Origin: an uncultured Methanomicrobiales archaeon | GTDB taxonomy: Archaea; Halobacteriota; Methanomicrobia; Methanomicrobiales; Methanospirillaceae | DNA: 43,344 bases | Direction of reading: 5' to 3' | Assembly (NCBI GenBank): GCA_903828975.1 | Contig: CAIKOD010000098.1 | Span: 1 to 43,344 of the forward strand | In this document: positions 3,660 to 25,718 of the stretch, piece by piece | Numbering within the stretch: position 1 is the stretch's first letter | How the letters are laid out: the number at the start of each line of letters is the position of its first letter | The notes under the pieces: generated by a model | What the model was told of the DNA's origin: nothing | The model's input: the letters and a program-made list of their open reading frames with translations, nothing else | Databases searched by the model: none | Translations under genes and position numbers: made by a program

Positions 3660-6224
3660 TTAGTGCTTGCGCACTACAAGGAATGCTACGGCTCCGAGAC
3701 CGATCAGTGCAATCAGTGCACCAAATCCAGGCTGAGTTGTCGGCTTGGCGGTTGGGACTGTTGTCTTTGGCACTACTACCACAACGGTGACGTTGGGCGC
3801 TGGTGTAGTGGTTATCACTGGGGTCGGAACGGGTGTTGGTTTGAACTCAACGACGTTGAACAGAGTTGATGCCTGTGCTCCTGATACAGTGATGCTCTGT
3901 GCCTGAACGATGTACTCGTCGGGCTTGAATGATGATGCATCTACTGGGAAGGACCACTTGTTCACGCCATCGGTTGCTTTCTGGACCTTTACGGTTCCAG
4001 TTGCTCCACTGAATTCACCGCTCTGGGTCTTTGTGGTTGGCTTGAAGGACGAGGAGGTCACCTCAACGAGGAGCTCGTCATCGACTGCAAGGTTGGTGGT
4101 TCCCGCGATGGTGAACTTGTCGCCGACCTGCTTCTCGCCTACCGGGAGAACAGTGACTTTTGGTACTTCAACGAGGAACTGGAGCTTCGCGTAGGTATCA
4201 TCAACGCTTGGGTTGTTGAGTGCCTGGACGAGTGCTTCTGCTGCGTCGGATCCCTGGAGGCTGCCTGGGCCCTGTAACTTGAACAGGGTGTTTCCTGCGA
4301 CTGGGTAGCTGCCTAATACAAGCTCCCTGTTTGACGATGGATATACATCGTAAATTTCGTTGTACATCGGGTGCTGTGCGACCACGAAGTACTGACCTGC
4401 TGCCATGTCTGCTGTTGTGCCCTGGGAGACTTCATACTCGAAGGTACCGTCAGCGTTGACACTGGTTGTGGAGTAGATGACTTTGTTCTTACCCATGATC
4501 CAGACTGCGACACCCTGTGTAGGCTGTCCTGCAGCGGTTCCACGGACGAACAGTTTGTCACCAGCTGCTACTACAGACTGTGAGGCCTGTGCGCTGATGA
4601 ATGGCTTCCTTATGATGACTGATACGGTTGCATACTGTGCGTTGGAGAGACCGTTCTTGTCAACCGGAGTTGCAACTGCGTAAACGGTGTAAGTACCTGC
4701 ATCAATGTTCAGGTTTGCGGTCTGCCACTTGTATTCCCAGGTGTTGTCTTCAAGGACATCTGATGGATTGAAGGTTGATGTAACGCCTGAAACTACTGGC
4801 TCACGCGGGTTGGTCATCTGTCCGCCATTTGATGGAAGGTTCGGACCGGTGATGAACATGTAGGTGTAGTCAGTCTCTGAGTTTGTCCCGGTGAACTTGA
4901 CCTCTTCTCCGAGGAAGTAGTTCTGGGTACCGGCTGCCACGACTGTGACTGCGCCCTTCTCAATCTTAACGTCGACTTCATCGCTCTTGAACTGCCTGTC
5001 TGTGCCAGTGTTTGAGATTGGCGGGTTGTATGGCTCAGGCCGCTCTACACGGATGGTGTACTTCTTGTCCTTGGTGTCCTTCGTGGTCGAGAACCCTACT
5101 GTGCGGGTACCGGAGTTGGACAGAGTGACTGAAGCATAGTAGGCTGTACCGTTCACATTGGTTACACCGTAGTACTTGGCTACATCCTGCTGGATGGTCG
5201 TGGTTGAACCCTGGAATACGTACGCACCAATTGTGAATGGGCCGAGGGGGTTGTCCCTTGCCACATTGTCCTGTGCGTAAACAATGCTGGGTGGCTGGTC
5301 AAGGGTTGAACCTGTCATTGAGCTGGTGCCCTTAACCCAGAGGTAGTATGCACTGTTTGGTTTACCGGTGATGGTAACTGCGAATGGGTTGCCGCGTACG
5401 ACTGAGTCCTTGCTGGCCTCGATCTTTACGGTGTCAGATGCAATGGTAACGGTTTTAACTGCAGAGACGGTCTTCCCGGTGTAGTCGTTACCGGATGCGT
5501 CCTTGTAGTTGTCTTTCATTCCATTGAGGTTGCAGTCGGTCCAGAATGTGTAGCCGCCGGACTTGTAAACCCGGTTACCTTCAGCTCCCATGATCCCGGT
5601 TGCCCACCCTTGTTTGCTGCCAATCACGAGGGGAATGCTGTTCCACATGTATGGCATTGCATTCGGTGACTGACCTGTCAGGGGCTGCACAACGGTAGCG
5701 TTCTGTAAGAGGCTGGTGTAGACCGTACCGTCTGATGTCTTGACCTTGATGGTCATGAATCCTGCAGTTGTCTGACGTTCTGTCGGGATGATGTTCATGT
5801 TGGTTTCAATACGGAATACAAGGAAATCTCCTGCTGGGATGCTCTTCCCAGTAACATCCTTACCGGACTGCTGGTCGTACACCGAGATAGTCGATATGGG
5901 GTCGTTTGCAACAACTGCTACAACGTTGGATGTTCCAGCATACCAGTTTCCGGTGCGTCCGACGAAATCAGCTGGTGCTACATAGAAACTCGCTGCGTTT
6001 CCGACGTTAACTGTTGCTGCCGGGGCACTTACGCCCGGGGTCTGGGTACCTGTATAATAGGCAATGGTTGTCCCTGAGGCTACCCCAGTTAAATTAAGGC
6101 CCTGCTCACCGACGAATACATTGCCGCCGAGTGGGACACTGTTTAAGCTACCTGCAAGTGCCGGCACTACCAGAATTGCAAGTGCCACGCACATTATCAG
6201 TGCTATGCTTAATCGCTTAGTCAT
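3660..6224 (-). CDS. Major S-layer-type surface protein with PGF-CTERM anchor
   Basis: An 854-residue exported protein. It opens with a signal peptide (MTKRLSIALIMC then LAVLVVP-like core, cleaved near PALAG). The N-terminal region (N-x-V-P-x-G-x-x-V-F-V-G-E-x-G-L-N-L) matches the start of Methanomicrobiales surface proteins of the DUF3821 type. The middle is a series of beta-rich Ig-like domains. At the C-terminus a Thr/Pro-rich linker (about 805-830) leads to QPGFGALIALIGLGA and a short basic end (VVRKH). This is the PGF-CTERM signal cleaved and lipidated by archaeosortase A. Codon choice is notably uniform, as expected of a highly expressed gene. The start has a perfect AAGGAGG ribosome binding site. 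Assignment as the major S-layer protein is inferred from family, length and expression signals. Confidence 0.85.
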   Translation of the reverse strand: MTKRLSIALIMCVALAILVVPALAGSLNSVPLGGNVFVGEQGLNLTGVASGTTIAYYTGTQTPGVSAPAATVNVGNAASFYVAPADFVGRTGNWYAGTSNVVAVVANDPISTISVYDQQSGKDVTGKSIPAGDFLVFRIETNMNIIPTERQTTAGFMTIKVKTSDGTVYTSLLQNATVVQPLTGQSPNAMPYMWNSIPLVIGSKQGWATGIMGAEGNRVYKSGGYTFWTDCNLNGMKDNYKDASGNDYTGKTVSAVKTVTIASDTVKIEASKDSVVRGNPFAVTITGKPNSAYYLWVKGTSSMTGSTLDQPPSIVYAQDNVARDNPLGPFTIGAYVFQGSTTTIQQDVAKYYGVTNVNGTAYYASVTLSNSGTRTVGFSTTKDTKDKKYTIRVERPEPYNPPISNTGTDRQFKSDEVDVKIEKGAVTVVAAGTQNYFLGEEVKFTGTNSETDYTYMFITGPNLPSNGGQMTNPREPVVSGVTSTFNPSDVLEDNTWEYKWQTANLNIDAGTYTVYAVATPVDKNGLSNAQYATVSVIIRKPFISAQASQSVVAAGDKLFVRGTAAGQPTQGVAVWIMGKNKVIYSTTSVNADGTFEYEVSQGTTADMAAGQYFVVAQHPMYNEIYDVYPSSNRELVLGSYPVAGNTLFKLQGPGSLQGSDAAEALVQALNNPSVDDTYAKLQFLVEVPKVTVLPVGEKQVGDKFTIAGTTNLAVDDELLVEVTSSSFKPTTKTQSGEFSGATGTVKVQKATDGVNKWSFPVDASSFKPDEYIVQAQSITVSGAQASTLFNVVEFKPTPVPTPVITTTPAPNVTVVVVVPKTTVPTAKPTTQPGFGALIALIGLGAVAFLVVRKH

Positions 6225-6370
6225 ATATTTTCCTCCTTACTCAATTGTCCATAGTTCTGTACGTTCAATCCAATGCACCCAAACCGGATCAGGTTCGACA
6301 CCTGTCGATTAACGGTTCACAGTGCTCCATACTCCGAATCACGGAATATGAATCAATATTAGTGAAACAC

Positions 6371-6386
6371 TTAATATATCCTTTTT
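6371..6386 (-). promoter_or_regulatory. Promoter and long 5' leader of the S-layer gene
   Basis: The minus strand carries AAAAAGGATATATTAAG, a purine-rich BRE-like element plus TATA box. Transcription about 25 nt downstream would give a leader of about 120 nt. That leader includes a near-perfect hairpin (TCGACA-GG-TGTCGA at 6295-6308) and ends with AAGGAGG about 7 nt before the ATG. Confidence 0.5.
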
Positions 6387-6621
6387 GGTTGATCGCAGGG
6401 ATTATTATGCGGATGTACGGGGTGCTGGGACAAATCAGGGGTTACTCCACCCCTGTTTCCATCTTCCCGGGGAACCGGCACTCTCTCCGGAGTAATCCCG
6501 ATGTACCCGAATACCGTTTCTATTACGCGCACCTTTCCATACACGCTTAAAGAATTAGTATCTCCGGAAATCGCCTGTAATAATAAGGGCAACCCCGGCA
6601 TTATTACTGACTGATCGTACC

Positions 6622-12815: not shown

Positions 12816-13562
12816 TCATCCGTTCCCCGTGTACGAATTCCACACCGTTCCGGAGAGTCGTTCATTTGCAAACGACAGGTAGTCCTCTACAACTTCAAAC
12901 CCGATAAAATGCCGCCCCATCTCCTTTGCGGTGACAGCAACAGTCCCTGAGCCAAGGAACGGGTCGAGGACGATATCCCCGGGGTTACTGGAAAACCGAA
13001 GAATTTTCCGGACGATCTCGGATGGCAGCTTTGTAGGGGTTTTTTTCCTTCCTTTCCAGTATTCACGCTTTATGTCCCAGACATCCTCCGGATAATGCTC
13101 CACTTTATTGAACGTGTACCGCTTCGGGTCTTTCACCACAAACAGGACATGATAATGGCTTGTGACATACTTTTTCTTCGTAAAAACACCGAACTGGTAC
13201 TTCCAGATAAGGTGGTTCTGGGTAGTAAAACCCACTCCGTCAAGACCGCCGAGGATATCTTTTAAGTGGTTCCAGCCGGAGAACACATACATACTACCTG
13301 ACGGGGACAGGACACGATAAGCCTCAGACATCCATTCGCGGGTAAATGATTCATATTCATCGCCCGCTATCTCCTGGTACCCCTCGAGGACATTGGACCC
13401 GGTCCGGTTGTAGTTCAGGCGCTGAGCACGGAAATCGATGGCAAAGGGGGGGTCAGTGACAAGGAGGTCGATAGCCGAGTCAGGGAGGTCCCGAATCAGC
13501 CGGGTTGCATCCCCCTGATATACCCGGTCCTCCTGGTACGGTCCGAGATTCCTGTCATTCAC
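12816..13562 (-). CDS. Orphan DNA methyltransferase (DPPF type, N4-C or N6-A)
   Basis: 248 residues. Motif IV LLVTDPPFAIDF is near residues 33-44 and motif I DIVLDPFLGSGTVAVTA near 200-216. This order (catalytic motif before SAM motif) and the DPPF sequence place it in the beta-class of amino-methyltransferases. Between them is the likely target-recognition region, rich in Lys and aromatic residues. No restriction endonuclease, specificity subunit or mismatch endonuclease gene is adjacent, so it looks like a solitary methylase that marks the chromosome or protects against foreign restriction. The target site cannot be read from sequence. Confidence 0.85.
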   Translation of the reverse strand: MNDRNLGPYQEDRVYQGDATRLIRDLPDSAIDLLVTDPPFAIDFRAQRLNYNRTGSNVLEGYQEIAGDEYESFTREWMSEAYRVLSPSGSMYVFSGWNHLKDILGGLDGVGFTTQNHLIWKYQFGVFTKKKYVTSHYHVLFVVKDPKRYTFNKVEHYPEDVWDIKREYWKGRKKTPTKLPSEIVRKILRFSSNPGDIVLDPFLGSGTVAVTAKEMGRHFIGFEVVEDYLSFANERLSGTVWNSYTGNG

Positions 13563-20996: not shown

Positions 20997-22178
20997 TCAT
21001 GGTTTCCGGCTGACTACCGGCTGGCAGGGGTGTTCACTGGGGTTAAGAGGTGTTATCCTTTCGGTGCCGATCCCCGGAATACCGGCATCCACGTTCAATA
21101 ACACGGCGTTGTCGAGCCCCCAGAGCGAAACCGCTGCAAGGGCACCGATTACGCCACGTCCGCCATGGAGGGTGACGTCGTTATTACTGGCAACATGGTC
21201 AGCAAGTTCACGAGATACTACCCCGGAGCGCACCAGTCTGCCGTACTCCCTGAGTTCCGGGGGTATACGGAACCCGGTCCTGATAGCGACGCCCCATTCG
21301 TGAGAAAGGGCCTCGTCACTGACAAATTTATACACCCTGTCTTTAATCTGGTCTATCACCCCGGGTTCGGCAGCAACATCAATGAAACTACACGAATTAC
21401 CTGCCGTCTTACCGGGAAGTGCGGGGTACAACATCGCAACATGGTGCCCGATGGGAATAAGCCCCTCCATTCCCGCGATATGCTGGAGGAGGGCAAGTGC
21501 AAGTGCAAAGGTTGCACCCCCTTCCGGGCTGTCAGTATCGTCGATCCCGATGATAACGTGGGTCAGTGCCCGCGTATAGACTTCGCCTTCAACCACACCT
21601 CCTTTTTTTCGGACTTTCACACGGGCGACGCCTTTTGCACCGGACATCATATCAGTCAGGGAATAGGCAGGGCCACCGATACAACGGATCTCCTGCACCA
21701 CCATCTCGCCCTCCCGGCGTACCCCGGTAACCCCGACAGCTGGAGATGGGTAGGCCCCGATGGATATCTCCCCACGACAAAGCTTTGCGCATTCCCGGAG
21801 TAATGTACCGTCCCTCTGGACATGGTTGAGCGCTCCTCCTGCCATCCGGTGATGATACCCGCAAAAAGCGGCACAGGCACCACTCATGCATTCATGGTAG
21901 ATCTCTACCCATTCGCCGTCCACCGTGGTAAAAATTCTCCGGCATGCAGAGGAGGGTACCGCGCTGACTGCTGCGTACCGGGCAGGGATACGGCCCTGCT
22001 TCCGTTCCTTCACCACCACACACCCTTCAGAAACAAGGCGGTTGACCCAGTCCTGGGCCGTGCTCCTCGGCACTTCTGCCGCTTCCTGTATATTGGTTAC
22101 CGTAAAGTAGCCCTGTTCGAGGGTGACCTGCCGCATCAGGTGCAGGTACTGCCTGCGTCGTTCAATTACACCGTACAT
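20997..22178 (-). CDS. DTDS-motif protein with N-terminal winged helix (TiaS-related or methanogenesis marker 11-like)
   Basis: 393 residues. Residues 1-65 form a winged helix-turn-helix (VTNIQEAAEVPRSTAQDWVNRL then a wing KERKQGRIPARY). A central part has spaced cysteines (CMSGACAAFCGYHH, CAKLC). From about 210 the motif IGIDDTDSPEGGATFALALAL appears (positions about 211-231), resembling the DTDS ATP-binding motif of TiaS and the sequence of methanogenesis marker protein 11. The domain mix suggests a DNA-binding or RNA-modifying enzyme. It overlaps the end of homoserine dehydrogenase by 17 bp and is the last gene of that operon. Function is not established, and the marker-11 link is from memory of the family. 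Confidence 0.6.
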   Translation of the reverse strand: MYGVIERRRQYLHLMRQVTLEQGYFTVTNIQEAAEVPRSTAQDWVNRLVSEGCVVVKERKQGRIPARYAAVSAVPSSACRRIFTTVDGEWVEIYHECMSGACAAFCGYHHRMAGGALNHVQRDGTLLRECAKLCRGEISIGAYPSPAVGVTGVRREGEMVVQEIRCIGGPAYSLTDMMSGAKGVARVKVRKKGGVVEGEVYTRALTHVIIGIDDTDSPEGGATFALALALLQHIAGMEGLIPIGHHVAMLYPALPGKTAGNSCSFIDVAAEPGVIDQIKDRVYKFVSDEALSHEWGVAIRTGFRIPPELREYGRLVRSGVVSRELADHVASNNDVTLHGGRGVIGALAAVSLWGLDNAVLLNVDAGIPGIGTERITPLNPSEHPCQPVVSRKP

Positions 22179-23148
22179 GGGACGAAATAAACAGGATATC
22201 GCCTATTATAGCGCTAGCGGTCTCTATAGACCCGGCCCCTTTCCCGATCAGGGTGATCTCCCCCGCCATATCAGTCTCAAGGGTGATGGCGTTTAAGGTA
22301 CCTTCGAACACAAGAGGGTGGTCCTTCCTGATGATCCGTGGTGAAACACGGAGTACTCCTCTTTCGGGAAACGCCTCTGCAATCAGCCGTATCGTGCAGT
22401 CTTTCTCTTCCGCAAGCCGCAGTGCATCGTTGGTGAGACGATCAATCCCGGTGATATCCACGCGGTCAAGAGATGCACCGTTATTCCATATGGTATTCGC
22501 AAGAATTACCAGCTTGATTGCTGCATCGATCCCTTTCACATCATACGTGGGGTCGGCCTCTGCATAACCAAGCTCCCGTGCCTCGGCAAGTGCCTGGTCA
22601 TAGGTAAGCCCTTCTGCGGCCATCCGTGTAAGAATATAGTTGCAGGTGCCGTTCAATACGCCATACAACGCCACGAACTTGTTTCCGGCAAGTCCGTTGC
22701 CAAGCGTATGCATGATCGGTATAGCTCCTCCTACGGTTGCCTCGTAACGGACAAGTACACCTTTCTCATTCGCGAGGTCCTTCAACTCTTTAAGGTGCAG
22801 GGATATTGGCCCTTTATTGGAGGTGACGATATGCTTGCCCCTCTCTATTGCCATTTTCATGTACGAGTGGGCTGGTTCCCCGCTCCCGGCATCAGTAGGG
22901 GTGACCTCAACAAGGACGTCGTAATCTGCACGCGAGACCACCTCGTTTGCAGATATGGACGTATCCCCGCAACGACCCGTCTTTTTTGCCGTAAGCACTG
23001 CATCAATATCCAGGCCTGACGGATCAATCAGCCCGCTTTTCGAGTCTGCTACCCCGGTCACGATAATATCCAGGTCCTTTCTGGCGATCATCTCGAGGAC
23101 ACCTTTTCCTACCGAGCCAAGACCGAGGACTGCGACCTTTACCGTCAT
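22162..23148 (-). CDS. hom: Homoserine dehydrogenase
   Basis: 328 residues, the short form without a C-terminal ACT domain. It reduces aspartate semialdehyde to homoserine for threonine and methionine synthesis. The Rossmann motif VLGLGSVGKGVLEMI opens the protein. Family motifs follow: TSNKGPISLH, YEATVGGAIPI, LNGTCNYILTRM, and AEADPTYDVKGIDAAIKL with the catalytic Lys/Asp. Its ATG overlaps the stop of the separate ACT protein gene by ATGA, so the regulatory domain is encoded just upstream as a separate polypeptide. Confidence 0.95.
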   Translation of the reverse strand: MTVKVAVLGLGSVGKGVLEMIARKDLDIIVTGVADSKSGLIDPSGLDIDAVLTAKKTGRCGDTSISANEVVSRADYDVLVEVTPTDAGSGEPAHSYMKMAIERGKHIVTSNKGPISLHLKELKDLANEKGVLVRYEATVGGAIPIMHTLGNGLAGNKFVALYGVLNGTCNYILTRMAAEGLTYDQALAEARELGYAEADPTYDVKGIDAAIKLVILANTIWNNGASLDRVDITGIDRLTNDALRLAEEKDCTIRLIAEAFPERGVLRVSPRIIRKDHPLVFEGTLNAITLETDMAGEITLIGKGAGSIETASAIIGDILFISSHVRCN

Positions 23149-23651
23149 ACAAGTTCCCCCTCAAGAGGCTCAATAATCAGCAGTTTTTTTGTTTTCGCAA
23201 CATCACGAAGGATATCGAGTGCAGCGTCCATATCCTTTTTCGAGACTGACTTGATTGTCAGGCGGGCAGAAGAGGGTTCATTAATCGCTGGCATCGCAAG
23301 GTCAAGGGCTGTAACTTCGGCAAACCCGGTGCAGTCTATACGGTCAACGGTATCTGACAGGTCGGTATGCATGAGGTGACCGATCATAATCACCGTCTGT
23401 TTGTACAGGAGGCGGTCCTTCCCGATCCGGAGGATATTCACACCCCGCTCTTTTATCATCGAGACCAGGTCAGTAAGCCGGGATTCGGCGATCTCCAGTA
23501 CAATCTGCACCCCAAGCGTATCTTCGCGGGATGAGAGGTCACGCTGGTGGATGACCGCTATGATATTTCCTCCTACCTCAGAAATGGGCTGCAGGGCCGA
23601 GACGAGCTGTCCCGGCGAGTCCTTCATCTCAAGCTTCATCGATACCTGCAC
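23145..23651 (-). CDS. ACT-domain regulatory protein adjacent to homoserine dehydrogenase
   Basis: About 168 residues. The N-terminal ACT fold is clear: VSMKLEMKDSPGQLVSAL, then EVGGNIIAVIHQ, the helix-loop-strand arrangement that binds amino acids. The C-terminal half may hold a second, diverged ACT-like unit. The frame is open from a TTG at 23684, but GTG at 23651, preceded by AGGTG, or ATG at 23639 fits the family. Being the first gene of the ACT-hom operon, it likely provides feedback sensing of threonine or another aspartate-family amino acid for homoserine dehydrogenase. That is inference from adjacency. Confidence 0.75.
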   Translation of the reverse strand: MQVSMKLEMKDSPGQLVSALQPISEVGGNIIAVIHQRDLSSREDTLGVQIVLEIAESRLTDLVSMIKERGVNILRIGKDRLLYKQTVIMIGHLMHTDLSDTVDRIDCTGFAEVTALDLAMPAINEPSSARLTIKSVSKKDMDAALDILRDVAKTKKLLIIEPLEGELV

Positions 23652-23836
23652 TAAAGCACCTGATGATACGTAGAACGGCACCAAAGATAAGTCTTTTACA
23701 TGTGATTCGCGGAGCAGGGGAAGATCGGGGTTTCAATCAGCGTGAGATCCCGGAAGGTTCGCATTTTACAGTATAAAAATCTAAGCCCGGTTAATTTCCG
23801 GTTTTTCATGGGCACCCTTGTGTCATGGAGAACGCA

Positions 23837-24460
23837 TCATCCACCGCCATTCCCGGGGAGTCCTTTACCTGCGTCTGGCTCGTTTCCGGCAGTATGTTCA
23901 CCGGTTCCGTCCGGCAGACCTGCATCGGCGGGGTTTGCGATCACGTAATGCTCAATAAAGAACCGAAATGACTTGTTCTTTTCGACAGCGACGCTCAGTG
24001 AGAAATGTTTCAGGACTTCGATCATGAATGCAATTTTTGACGGGTAATAACGCGGGATCCACCCGATAAAGTGCTCCTTCGTGACAAAGTCAGTACGCGC
24101 AGGGGCATGGATCCCGAGTGCTTTCGCCCCGGTATCATTAATACCGGCGAGGTACCAGCTCTCAATCTCCTGGATTATCACCATTATATGCTGGTAATCA
24201 GCCTCGGAAAACCTGGAAAGAATTATATTTTTTTTGGCAGGAACACTCTTTTCAAAGTCAATGTCGGTCACAATGATGTAACTATGTTGCATGGCGTTGA
24301 TGCCTCGGATAAACCGGTCTACCTTGACCGATTTTGTGCAGGCGAAGGTGATCAACTCAACCGACTCAAATATATGCTCAAACCGGGGTTTTATGATGGT
24401 TTCGAAGAAACGCACGTCATCACTTCCCTCAACAAAAATAAACAGGCGTCTTGCTGCCAT
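23837..24460 (-). CDS. TOPRIM-like nuclease-type protein paired with AAA ATPase
   Basis: 207 residues. The N-terminus has LFIFVEGSDDVRFF with Glu11 and an acidic pair, and IIVTDIDFE carries Asp66-x-Asp68. This E...DxD layout fits a TOPRIM metal site, as in DUF4435, RloB and OLD-type nucleases. QEIESWYLAG near 97-106 matches the conserved helix of RloB/DUF4276-like proteins. The last 30 residues are a low-complexity Gly/Pro/Asp tail. GAGGT sits just ahead of the ATG. It follows the AAA ATPase gene by 7 bp, so the pair is one operon. Assignment to a precise family would need profile searches. Confidence 0.6.
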   Translation of the reverse strand: MAARRLFIFVEGSDDVRFFETIIKPRFEHIFESVELITFACTKSVKVDRFIRGINAMQHSYIIVTDIDFEKSVPAKKNIILSRFSEADYQHIMVIIQEIESWYLAGINDTGAKALGIHAPARTDFVTKEHFIGWIPRYYPSKIAFMIEVLKHFSLSVAVEKNKSFRFFIEHYVIANPADAGLPDGTGEHTAGNEPDAGKGLPGNGGG

Positions 24461-24467
24461 CGCAACC

Positions 24468-25718
24468 TCATTCGAGACCCAGAAGGTCCTGGATAAAGAG
24501 TTCGTCGATACCTATCTCGTGCTCAAGGAATGTCCTGACCTCCTGCTTGTCAACCGGCCTCGAAAGATGGGAAAATCCCTCCCGGTCTCTCGTGATGAGG
24601 GTAATGTCTTCGATATTGACGTGTTTTACCATCTCAGGGTTATGCGTGGTCACGATAATCTGCTTCCTTTGTGAGGCATCCTTGAGCATGGCAACGAGTT
24701 TTGCAATAAGGGCCGGGTGAATGTTTCTTTCTGGTTCCTCAATAATTGTCACAGGCCTCTCTTCAAAGAAAAGCGCAACAATCAGCGCTGCAATGTTAAT
24801 TGTTCCATCCGAGATCATCGAGGCCGGAATATACTTGTTCCCGCTGTATACTTCCCGGACCTTCATAAATAGTGACATGTCGAGAAACTTTTCAACCGCG
24901 ATATCATCTACAAATGGCAGCATGTCCCGTACGAGATTAAGGAATGCCATTTTTCGACCAGGGTCTTCACAAATACCCTTGACAACGATGGCAAGGTTAC
25001 TCCCGTCCTTCTCGAGCTCGGTTTTACCGAGCATCGGGGCCGCTTTCTTGAGAAGCCGGGGATCGAAGTCATATATTTTGATCCCACGGAAGATCCATTC
25101 AAGGGGGGGTATACCCGGGACATTCATGGGAATATTGGCAATCAGGCGGGTGAAGGGGTTTTCCTGCTTCTGGAAGAGGTGTGGAAACAGGTCTTCATCA
25201 TGGACGACAAATCCCGGAGGGGGGATGAGTTCATACCGGATCTCTCCATCCATGAGGAATAATTTCATACACCCAGGCCCGATCTTCTGCCCCGGGATTG
25301 CCGGCCCGAAAAAATCCCCATTGATTTCAAGCTGGTCCTTCGGGATTTCGTATCCCGTCTGGGTATCCGTGAACCGGATGGAGAACTCGTACACCAGGTG
25401 GCGGGGTTCAAAATATATCGGAGCGTGTTCTCTTACCCCGATTACCTCCTTTTTCCTCTCCTCAAGCGTGTATTCGATCTTAAATGATAGCTCCTCTGCA
25501 GGGCCGATAACCGTGTTTCGCAGGTAATCAACACCCCCCTGGAGCGAGATGGCATTACCGATGCCGTATTTTGCAATATCCCGGAGGAAAATAAATACCT
25601 GGATCAGGTTTGATTTTCCCGAGGCATTTGAACCGATGAGAATGGTAAACGAATCCGGATGGAACGACATCTCGCGGAAACTCTTAAAGTTGGTTACCGA
25701 GATGCAGGTGATAGGCAT
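24468..25718 (-). CDS. SMC/RecF-like AAA ATPase (AAA_15/AAA_21 type), partner of the TOPRIM protein
   Basis: 416 residues from ATG at 25718. The longer open frame to 25817 has no recognisable extra domain. It starts with ITCISVTNFKSF, the usual first strand of RecF/OLD-like ATPases. Walker A GSNASGKSNL is at about 29-38, the signature-like SDGTINIAAL near 300, Walker B VTIIEEPERNIHP near 323-335, and the H-loop VTTHNPEM near 356. The insert between is short, without a long coiled coil. OLD, PARIS (AriA), Gabija and Septu systems all use such ATPases as sensors. Here the neighbour is a TOPRIM-like protein rather than UvrD or HNH, so it is closest in layout to PARIS. Confidence 0.75.
   Translation of the reverse strand: MPITCISVTNFKSFREMSFHPDSFTILIGSNASGKSNLIQVFIFLRDIAKYGIGNAISLQGGVDYLRNTVIGPAEELSFKIEYTLEERKKEVIGVREHAPIYFEPRHLVYEFSIRFTDTQTGYEIPKDQLEINGDFFGPAIPGQKIGPGCMKLFLMDGEIRYELIPPPGFVVHDEDLFPHLFQKQENPFTRLIANIPMNVPGIPPLEWIFRGIKIYDFDPRLLKKAAPMLGKTELEKDGSNLAIVVKGICEDPGRKMAFLNLVRDMLPFVDDIAVEKFLDMSLFMKVREVYSGNKYIPASMISDGTINIAALIVALFFEERPVTIIEEPERNIHPALIAKLVAMLKDASQRKQIIVTTHNPEMVKHVNIEDITLITRDREGFSHLSRPVDKQEVRTFLEHEIGIDELFIQDLLGLE

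Follow-up and report, generated by a model that had tools for sequence, protein, structure and literature searches.

OLD-type nucleases are known chiefly from antiviral systems of patchy distribution, and the question raised by the two genes considered here is whether a methanogen carrying an OLD-like pair thereby carries a defence system or a pair that does housekeeping work. The genes lie on the reverse strand of the window, the whole stretch of 43,344 nucleotides from an uncultured Methanomicrobiales archaeon that was analysed, and a preliminary description of that stretch had put them forward as a candidate antiviral module, possibly a new archaeal variant of the PARIS or OLD type. By analogy with related systems an antiviral role is plausible.

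The pair is laid out as had been described, with the ATPase gene (24468..25718, reverse strand, 416 aa) first and a gene for a TOPRIM-fold, nuclease-like protein (23837..24460, reverse strand, 207 aa, assigned from its predicted fold and weak profile matches) second, the two being separated by an intergenic gap of 7 bp (24461..24467). The ATPase reading frame is extendable upstream to 25817, and its start was put at 25718 because the homologues (n = 52) are nearly invariant at M1. The commonest spacing of the two genes was a 4-bp overlap, found in 23 of the 51 pairs measured, and the 7-bp gap of the window's pair is ordinary for the family. In 53 of 101 related genomes the two genes stood side by side in this order, which is far beyond chance.

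Judged by sequence and model, the larger protein is a complete OLD/SMC-type ABC ATPase with intact Walker A and Walker B motifs, signature and H-loop. A profile search of Pfam matched it to AAA_21 (7.5e-29) and also to AAA_15 and SMC_N, in keeping with the SMC/RecF-like ATPase first proposed, and its AlphaFold (AF2) model (pLDDT 86) gave structural matches to PtuA, SMC heads, GajA, RecN and Rad50; taken together, profile and model match PtuA, GajA, OLD, AriA and SMC/Rad50. Among 52 homologues (all counts of residue conservation refer to 52 relatives of the window's pair) G29, N31, A32, G34, K35 and N37 are invariant at the Walker A motif GSNASGKSN (residues 29-37, 25608..25634, reverse strand, as for all features of the pair below), as are S303, G305 and T306 at the ABC signature SDGT (residues 303-306, 24801..24812), E327, E328 and P329 at the Walker B region (residues 322-328, 24735..24755) and T358 beside the nearly invariant switch histidine of the H-loop, H359 (24642..24644).

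The smaller protein is assigned a TOPRIM fold with an invariant glutamate and DxD, and its nuclease activity is putative. The TOPRIM-type Glu and DxD that had been picked out from the sequence alone proved invariant: E11, G12, D14 and D15 of the motif E11-G-S-D14-D15 (ExxxD, E11-D15, 24416..24430) and D66 and D68 of D66-I-D68 (24257..24265) occur in 52/52 relatives. The same is true of E98, E100, W102 and Y103 in a third motif, EIESWYLAG (residues 98-106, 24143..24169), and of K128-E129 (24074..24079), a candidate catalytic or structural pair, and R17, N162 and S164 are also invariant. Pfam matches were below threshold, comprising OLD-like_TOPRIM (0.0016) and DUF4435 (6.6e-5, 23.2 bits against a curated cut-off of 27, profile positions 1-67 of 238), and comparison of a profile of the protein with PDB sequences gave chance matches alone. 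The AF2 model has a pLDDT of 88 and is confident over residues 1-170 (block means 89-98), and the top five PDB matches found by Foldseek were all OLD TOPRIM domains, including 6nk8, 6njx, 6njw and 6njv, with scores that were modest (E 4e-3 to 1.7e-2, none below 1e-3, probability 0.92-0.97). An OLD-TOPRIM-like fold is thus predicted for the protein, and the proposed architecture, a TOPRIM-fold protein paired with an OLD/RecF-like ABC ATPase, is borne out.

The shortness of this protein and its low-complexity tail had been singled out as distinguishing features. The Gly/Pro/Asp tail is present (residues 176-207, 23840..23935) and is lineage-specific, but it is no family feature, since the length of the TOPRIM protein ranges from 172 to 233 aa and a core of 172-180 aa is the norm. 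A function for the tail was considered and ruled out by its poor conservation and low pLDDT (48-67).

An important consideration in establishing what the pair does is where it is found. Of 101 Methanomicrobiales genomes, 54 yielded the TOPRIM protein and 53 the ATPase, each as a single copy, and broken copies aside the family profile matches in the order were either 1e-42 or better or absent altogether, so that the family is a discrete one. In the 54th TOPRIM genome (G006) the gene has degraded to a fragment, and the search with the ATPase brought up no partner for it; this remnant, in two pieces and without an ATPase (L098, G006:C1:604027-604325), was recorded as a loss. The pair is missing from 48 of the 101 relatives, including near-complete genomes of pair-bearing genera in which the flanking genes are intact, and homoserine dehydrogenase was found in 100 of the 101. 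Outside the order the pair is sparse but widely spread, occurring in bins labelled Bacteroidota/Ignavibacteria/Kapabacteria, Syntrophales, Planctomycetota, Dehalococcoidia, Clostridia, Thermoplasmata and Methanosarcinales, many of these carriers being metagenome bins, whose label may mislead for an individual contig. In each non-Methanomicrobiales locus that was read, the ATPase gene lay just upstream of the TOPRIM gene.

The pair had been placed in the only accessory-looking stretch of the window, a view that comparison with relatives did not bear out. In seven genera (g1, g3, g8, g9, g11, g14 and g16, that is the window's genus and six others) it lies upstream of a gene for an ACT-domain protein, on the same strand and at a distance of 0.1-6.3 kb, and in nearly all of these homoserine dehydrogenase and a TiaS-domain gene follow downstream; this holds wherever the contig extends far enough. 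In the window, where the pair is flanked by the ACT and an M23 peptidase gene, these downstream neighbours, which belong to the context and not to the module, are the ACT-domain protein (23145..23684, position conserved), homoserine dehydrogenase (22162..23148, named from its sequence and its operon with the ACT protein) and a TrmB-HTH plus TiaS TCKD-domain protein (20997..22178, order conserved), all on the reverse strand. In one relative (L135) the 1.8 kb downstream, up to the contig end, lack the ACT neighbourhood. In genera g5 and g12 the pair occupies a different site, and pair-less relatives keep the flanking gene order. In the seven-genera clade, then, the pair keeps a fixed address, passed on with the chromosome, and does not form an accessory island.

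Three further observations concern the surroundings. The TrmB-type HTH plus TiaS TCKD protein (20997-22178) directly follows homoserine dehydrogenase in several genera and is possibly an unusual regulator. In a near relative (G003) homoserine dehydrogenase is split into two reading frames (L061:12042-12934), possibly through an assembly or sequencing error. The window also contains a DNA methyltransferase-like ORF at 12816-13562, with a DPPF motif recognised by eye and no obvious restriction partner adjoining it.

Inheritance and selection point the same way as position. Pairwise identities of the ATPase rose and fell with those of homoserine dehydrogenase (r 0.83, p 0.001 in a Mantel test), and genera clustered in the ATPase tree, the exception being g5, which was mixed with a bin labelled Thermoplasmata and with unplaced Methanomicrobiales bins; deep nodes of the tree were poorly supported. 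Within the genus the ATPase had a dN/dS of 0.055-0.085, the TOPRIM protein one of 0.087-0.139 and homoserine dehydrogenase one of 0.046-0.067. The pair is under strong purifying selection, and the ATPase is constrained almost as tightly as homoserine dehydrogenase.

A search for mobile copies yielded little. No plasmid match was obtained with the TOPRIM protein, and a search of phage records with the ATPase returned a single remote match of 24%. However, a divergent pair (35% and 32% identity), with overlapping genes, was present at 4730-6522 of an IMG/VR contig (L211, IMGVR_UViG_3300011829_000020), between a phage SSB gene and genes for a radical-SAM protein, a resolvase and a terminase, a context indicating that at least one phage carries the pair; the TOPRIM protein of this contig had no match among phage records. 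When 134 genes around 23 diverse loci, the loci to which the scan was confined, were compared with PADLOC models, few strong matches were obtained, and hence there is no visible defence-island signal. Many of the defence-model matches near the loci were methyltransferase or type IIG models on single proteins, a DndA match probably represents a cysteine desulfurase, and among the mad3 matches is an ABC transporter ATPase.

We lean towards a reading, drawn from sequence and structural models, in which it would be an ATP-gated TOPRIM nuclease serving as a resident antiviral guard. The ABC ATPase, as a dimer or higher assembly, would bind ATP and have the small TOPRIM protein attached to it as nuclease subunit; on sensing a trigger, an ATP-dependent change would allow the TOPRIM protein to cut nucleic acid, with its ExxxD and DxD coordinating Mg2+. 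The target might be DNA, nicked as by OLD and GajA, or tRNA as for AriB, and the antiviral or abortive-infection guard would have become resident in the Methanomicrobiales as a fixed chromosomal locus. This reading is favoured because conflict systems make up most of the class and because the module can be dispensed with, is found in different phyla and occurs in a phage; its wide but sparse spread and its absence with flanks intact fit a dispensable conflict module. TOPRIM plus OLD-ABC pairs have, as a class, already been described as conflict systems (PMC12839542, PMC10568477), and the nearest named families of the pair are defence ones, namely HEC-01A, MADS3, AriB and HEC-01B. Against it, inheritance congruent with homoserine dehydrogenase, a fixed position and a low ATPase dN/dS are unusual for a defence gene, and the lack of a defence-island signal, the absence of plasmid matches and the single phage contig also count on that side. 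Orthologues confined to housekeeping contexts had been named as evidence against an antiviral module, and within the clade this is largely what was found; the single copy in a phage speaks for a part in conflict.

The same observations lend substance to a housekeeping role, as a chromosome-maintenance or cell-cycle nuclease, the chief alternative, based on analogy, which we regard as rather unlikely. The congruent inheritance, the fixed spot by the ACT, homoserine dehydrogenase and TiaS-like genes in seven genera, the single copy, the selection on the ATPase near the level of a biosynthetic neighbour and the absence of plasmid and near absence of phage copies all speak for such a role, and there is a precedent in Cran1 of Saccharolobus islandicus (Sulfolobales), an OLD-family ATPase/nickase reported to be essential for progression of the cell cycle and apparently not antiviral (PMC12796447). 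Cran1 is, like the present pair, an archaeal OLD-type ATPase/nuclease without defence-island context, but its ATPase and nuclease share a single polypeptide and it resisted deletion, whereas here the two are split and missing from half of the genomes. Absence from 48 of 101 relatives with flanks intact, together with the decay in G006, means that the pair is not essential, and its sparseness across phyla and the phage copy also tell against housekeeping. A tentative form of this idea, likewise rather unlikely, is that the Methanomicrobiales have domesticated a split OLD-type TOPRIM nuclease, which would serve there as a vertically inherited chromosomal function in genome surveillance or in cell-cycle or DNA maintenance.

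It may also be asked whether the pair is simply a known system, PARIS (AriA/AriB) or HEC-01 (PADLOC Hma-embedded candidate 1), which the scores make improbable. Both share its architecture. In HEC-01 too the ATPase gene comes first and a small TOPRIM-like gene second, the window's ATPase matches HEC-01A at 3.2e-48 over nearly its full length (residues 3-408, profile 9-375 of 399), and the TOPRIM protein matches HEC-01B weakly (8.3e-6) over 61 residues (profile 50-107 of 192). A true HEC-01 pair in one relative (G035, L254:1435-3283) nevertheless scores far higher over its full length (HEC-01A 1.7e-174, HEC-01B 4.4e-62) and coexists with the present pair at a separate locus; its HEC-01B protein has EEMESWF, resembling the EIExWY motif of the present family, but the embedding in Hma/defence loci is replaced here by housekeeping contexts. 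PARIS, the proposed Class 4 OLD, which is set off by anti-restriction proteins of phages and cleaves tRNA, likewise splits ABC ATPase and TOPRIM into two genes and differs in that the present pair sits at a fixed chromosomal locus. The TOPRIM protein matches AriB/DUF4435 weakly (AriB 3.3e-5; DUF4435 under its curated cut-off) and through its N-terminal TOPRIM half alone, the C-terminal half being unmatched, and the AriB profile has 236 positions against a core of 172-180 aa here. Among proteins of the order that are AriB-like, scores run up to 69.8 bits (4.4e-19, positions 2-223 of 236), whereas the best member of the present family reaches 29.7 bits (5.5e-7, positions 1-89). The ATPase matches the AriA model at 3.5e-28, although OLD-ABC ATPases match many models. 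The conserved basic residues 43 and 46 of the TOPRIM protein are similar, by spacing alone, to the tRNA-gripping K60/K64 of AriB and may serve as a lead.

Other relatives are more distant. With Class 1 OLD, Class 2 (Gabija GajA) and Class 3 (retron Eco8) the pair shares the OLD-type ABC ATPase and the ExxxD and DxD, but it consists of two polypeptides and has no helicase or reverse transcriptase partner; neither the UvrD-like helicase of Gabija nor the reverse transcriptase of the retron is among the genes either side of it in the window. Similarity to MADS is weak, the ATPase scoring 136 bits against MAD3, for which the curated cut-off is 420, and the TOPRIM protein matching mad4 weakly. Because its scores fall far below those of true PARIS and HEC-01 members in related genomes, the pair looks like a family of its own within the known split-OLD/TOPRIM class, distinct from both. 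The new variant of the preliminary description holds good in this sense, but not the epithet archaeal, as bins labelled Bacteroidota, Syntrophales, Planctomycetota and Clostridia carry the pair. That it is an addiction module akin to toxin-antitoxin pairs and lacking any dedicated antiviral role is very improbable, for although the two genes are tightly coupled and AAA_21 bears the description 'putative AbiEii toxin, Type IV TA system', that label is generic, there is no plasmid or mobile context, and close relatives without the pair keep its flanks.

What the pair offers is a minimal two-gene version of an OLD-type system, held at one chromosomal address in seven methanogen genera under selection approaching that on a biosynthetic enzyme. 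Its 172-aa TOPRIM core is a small target for structural work and biochemistry. Were the domestication idea to prove true, it would be a second, independent archaeal OLD-type nuclease outside antiviral defence, besides Cran1; in either event the pair makes it testable whether OLD-type nucleases turn into resident immunity or into housekeeping genes.
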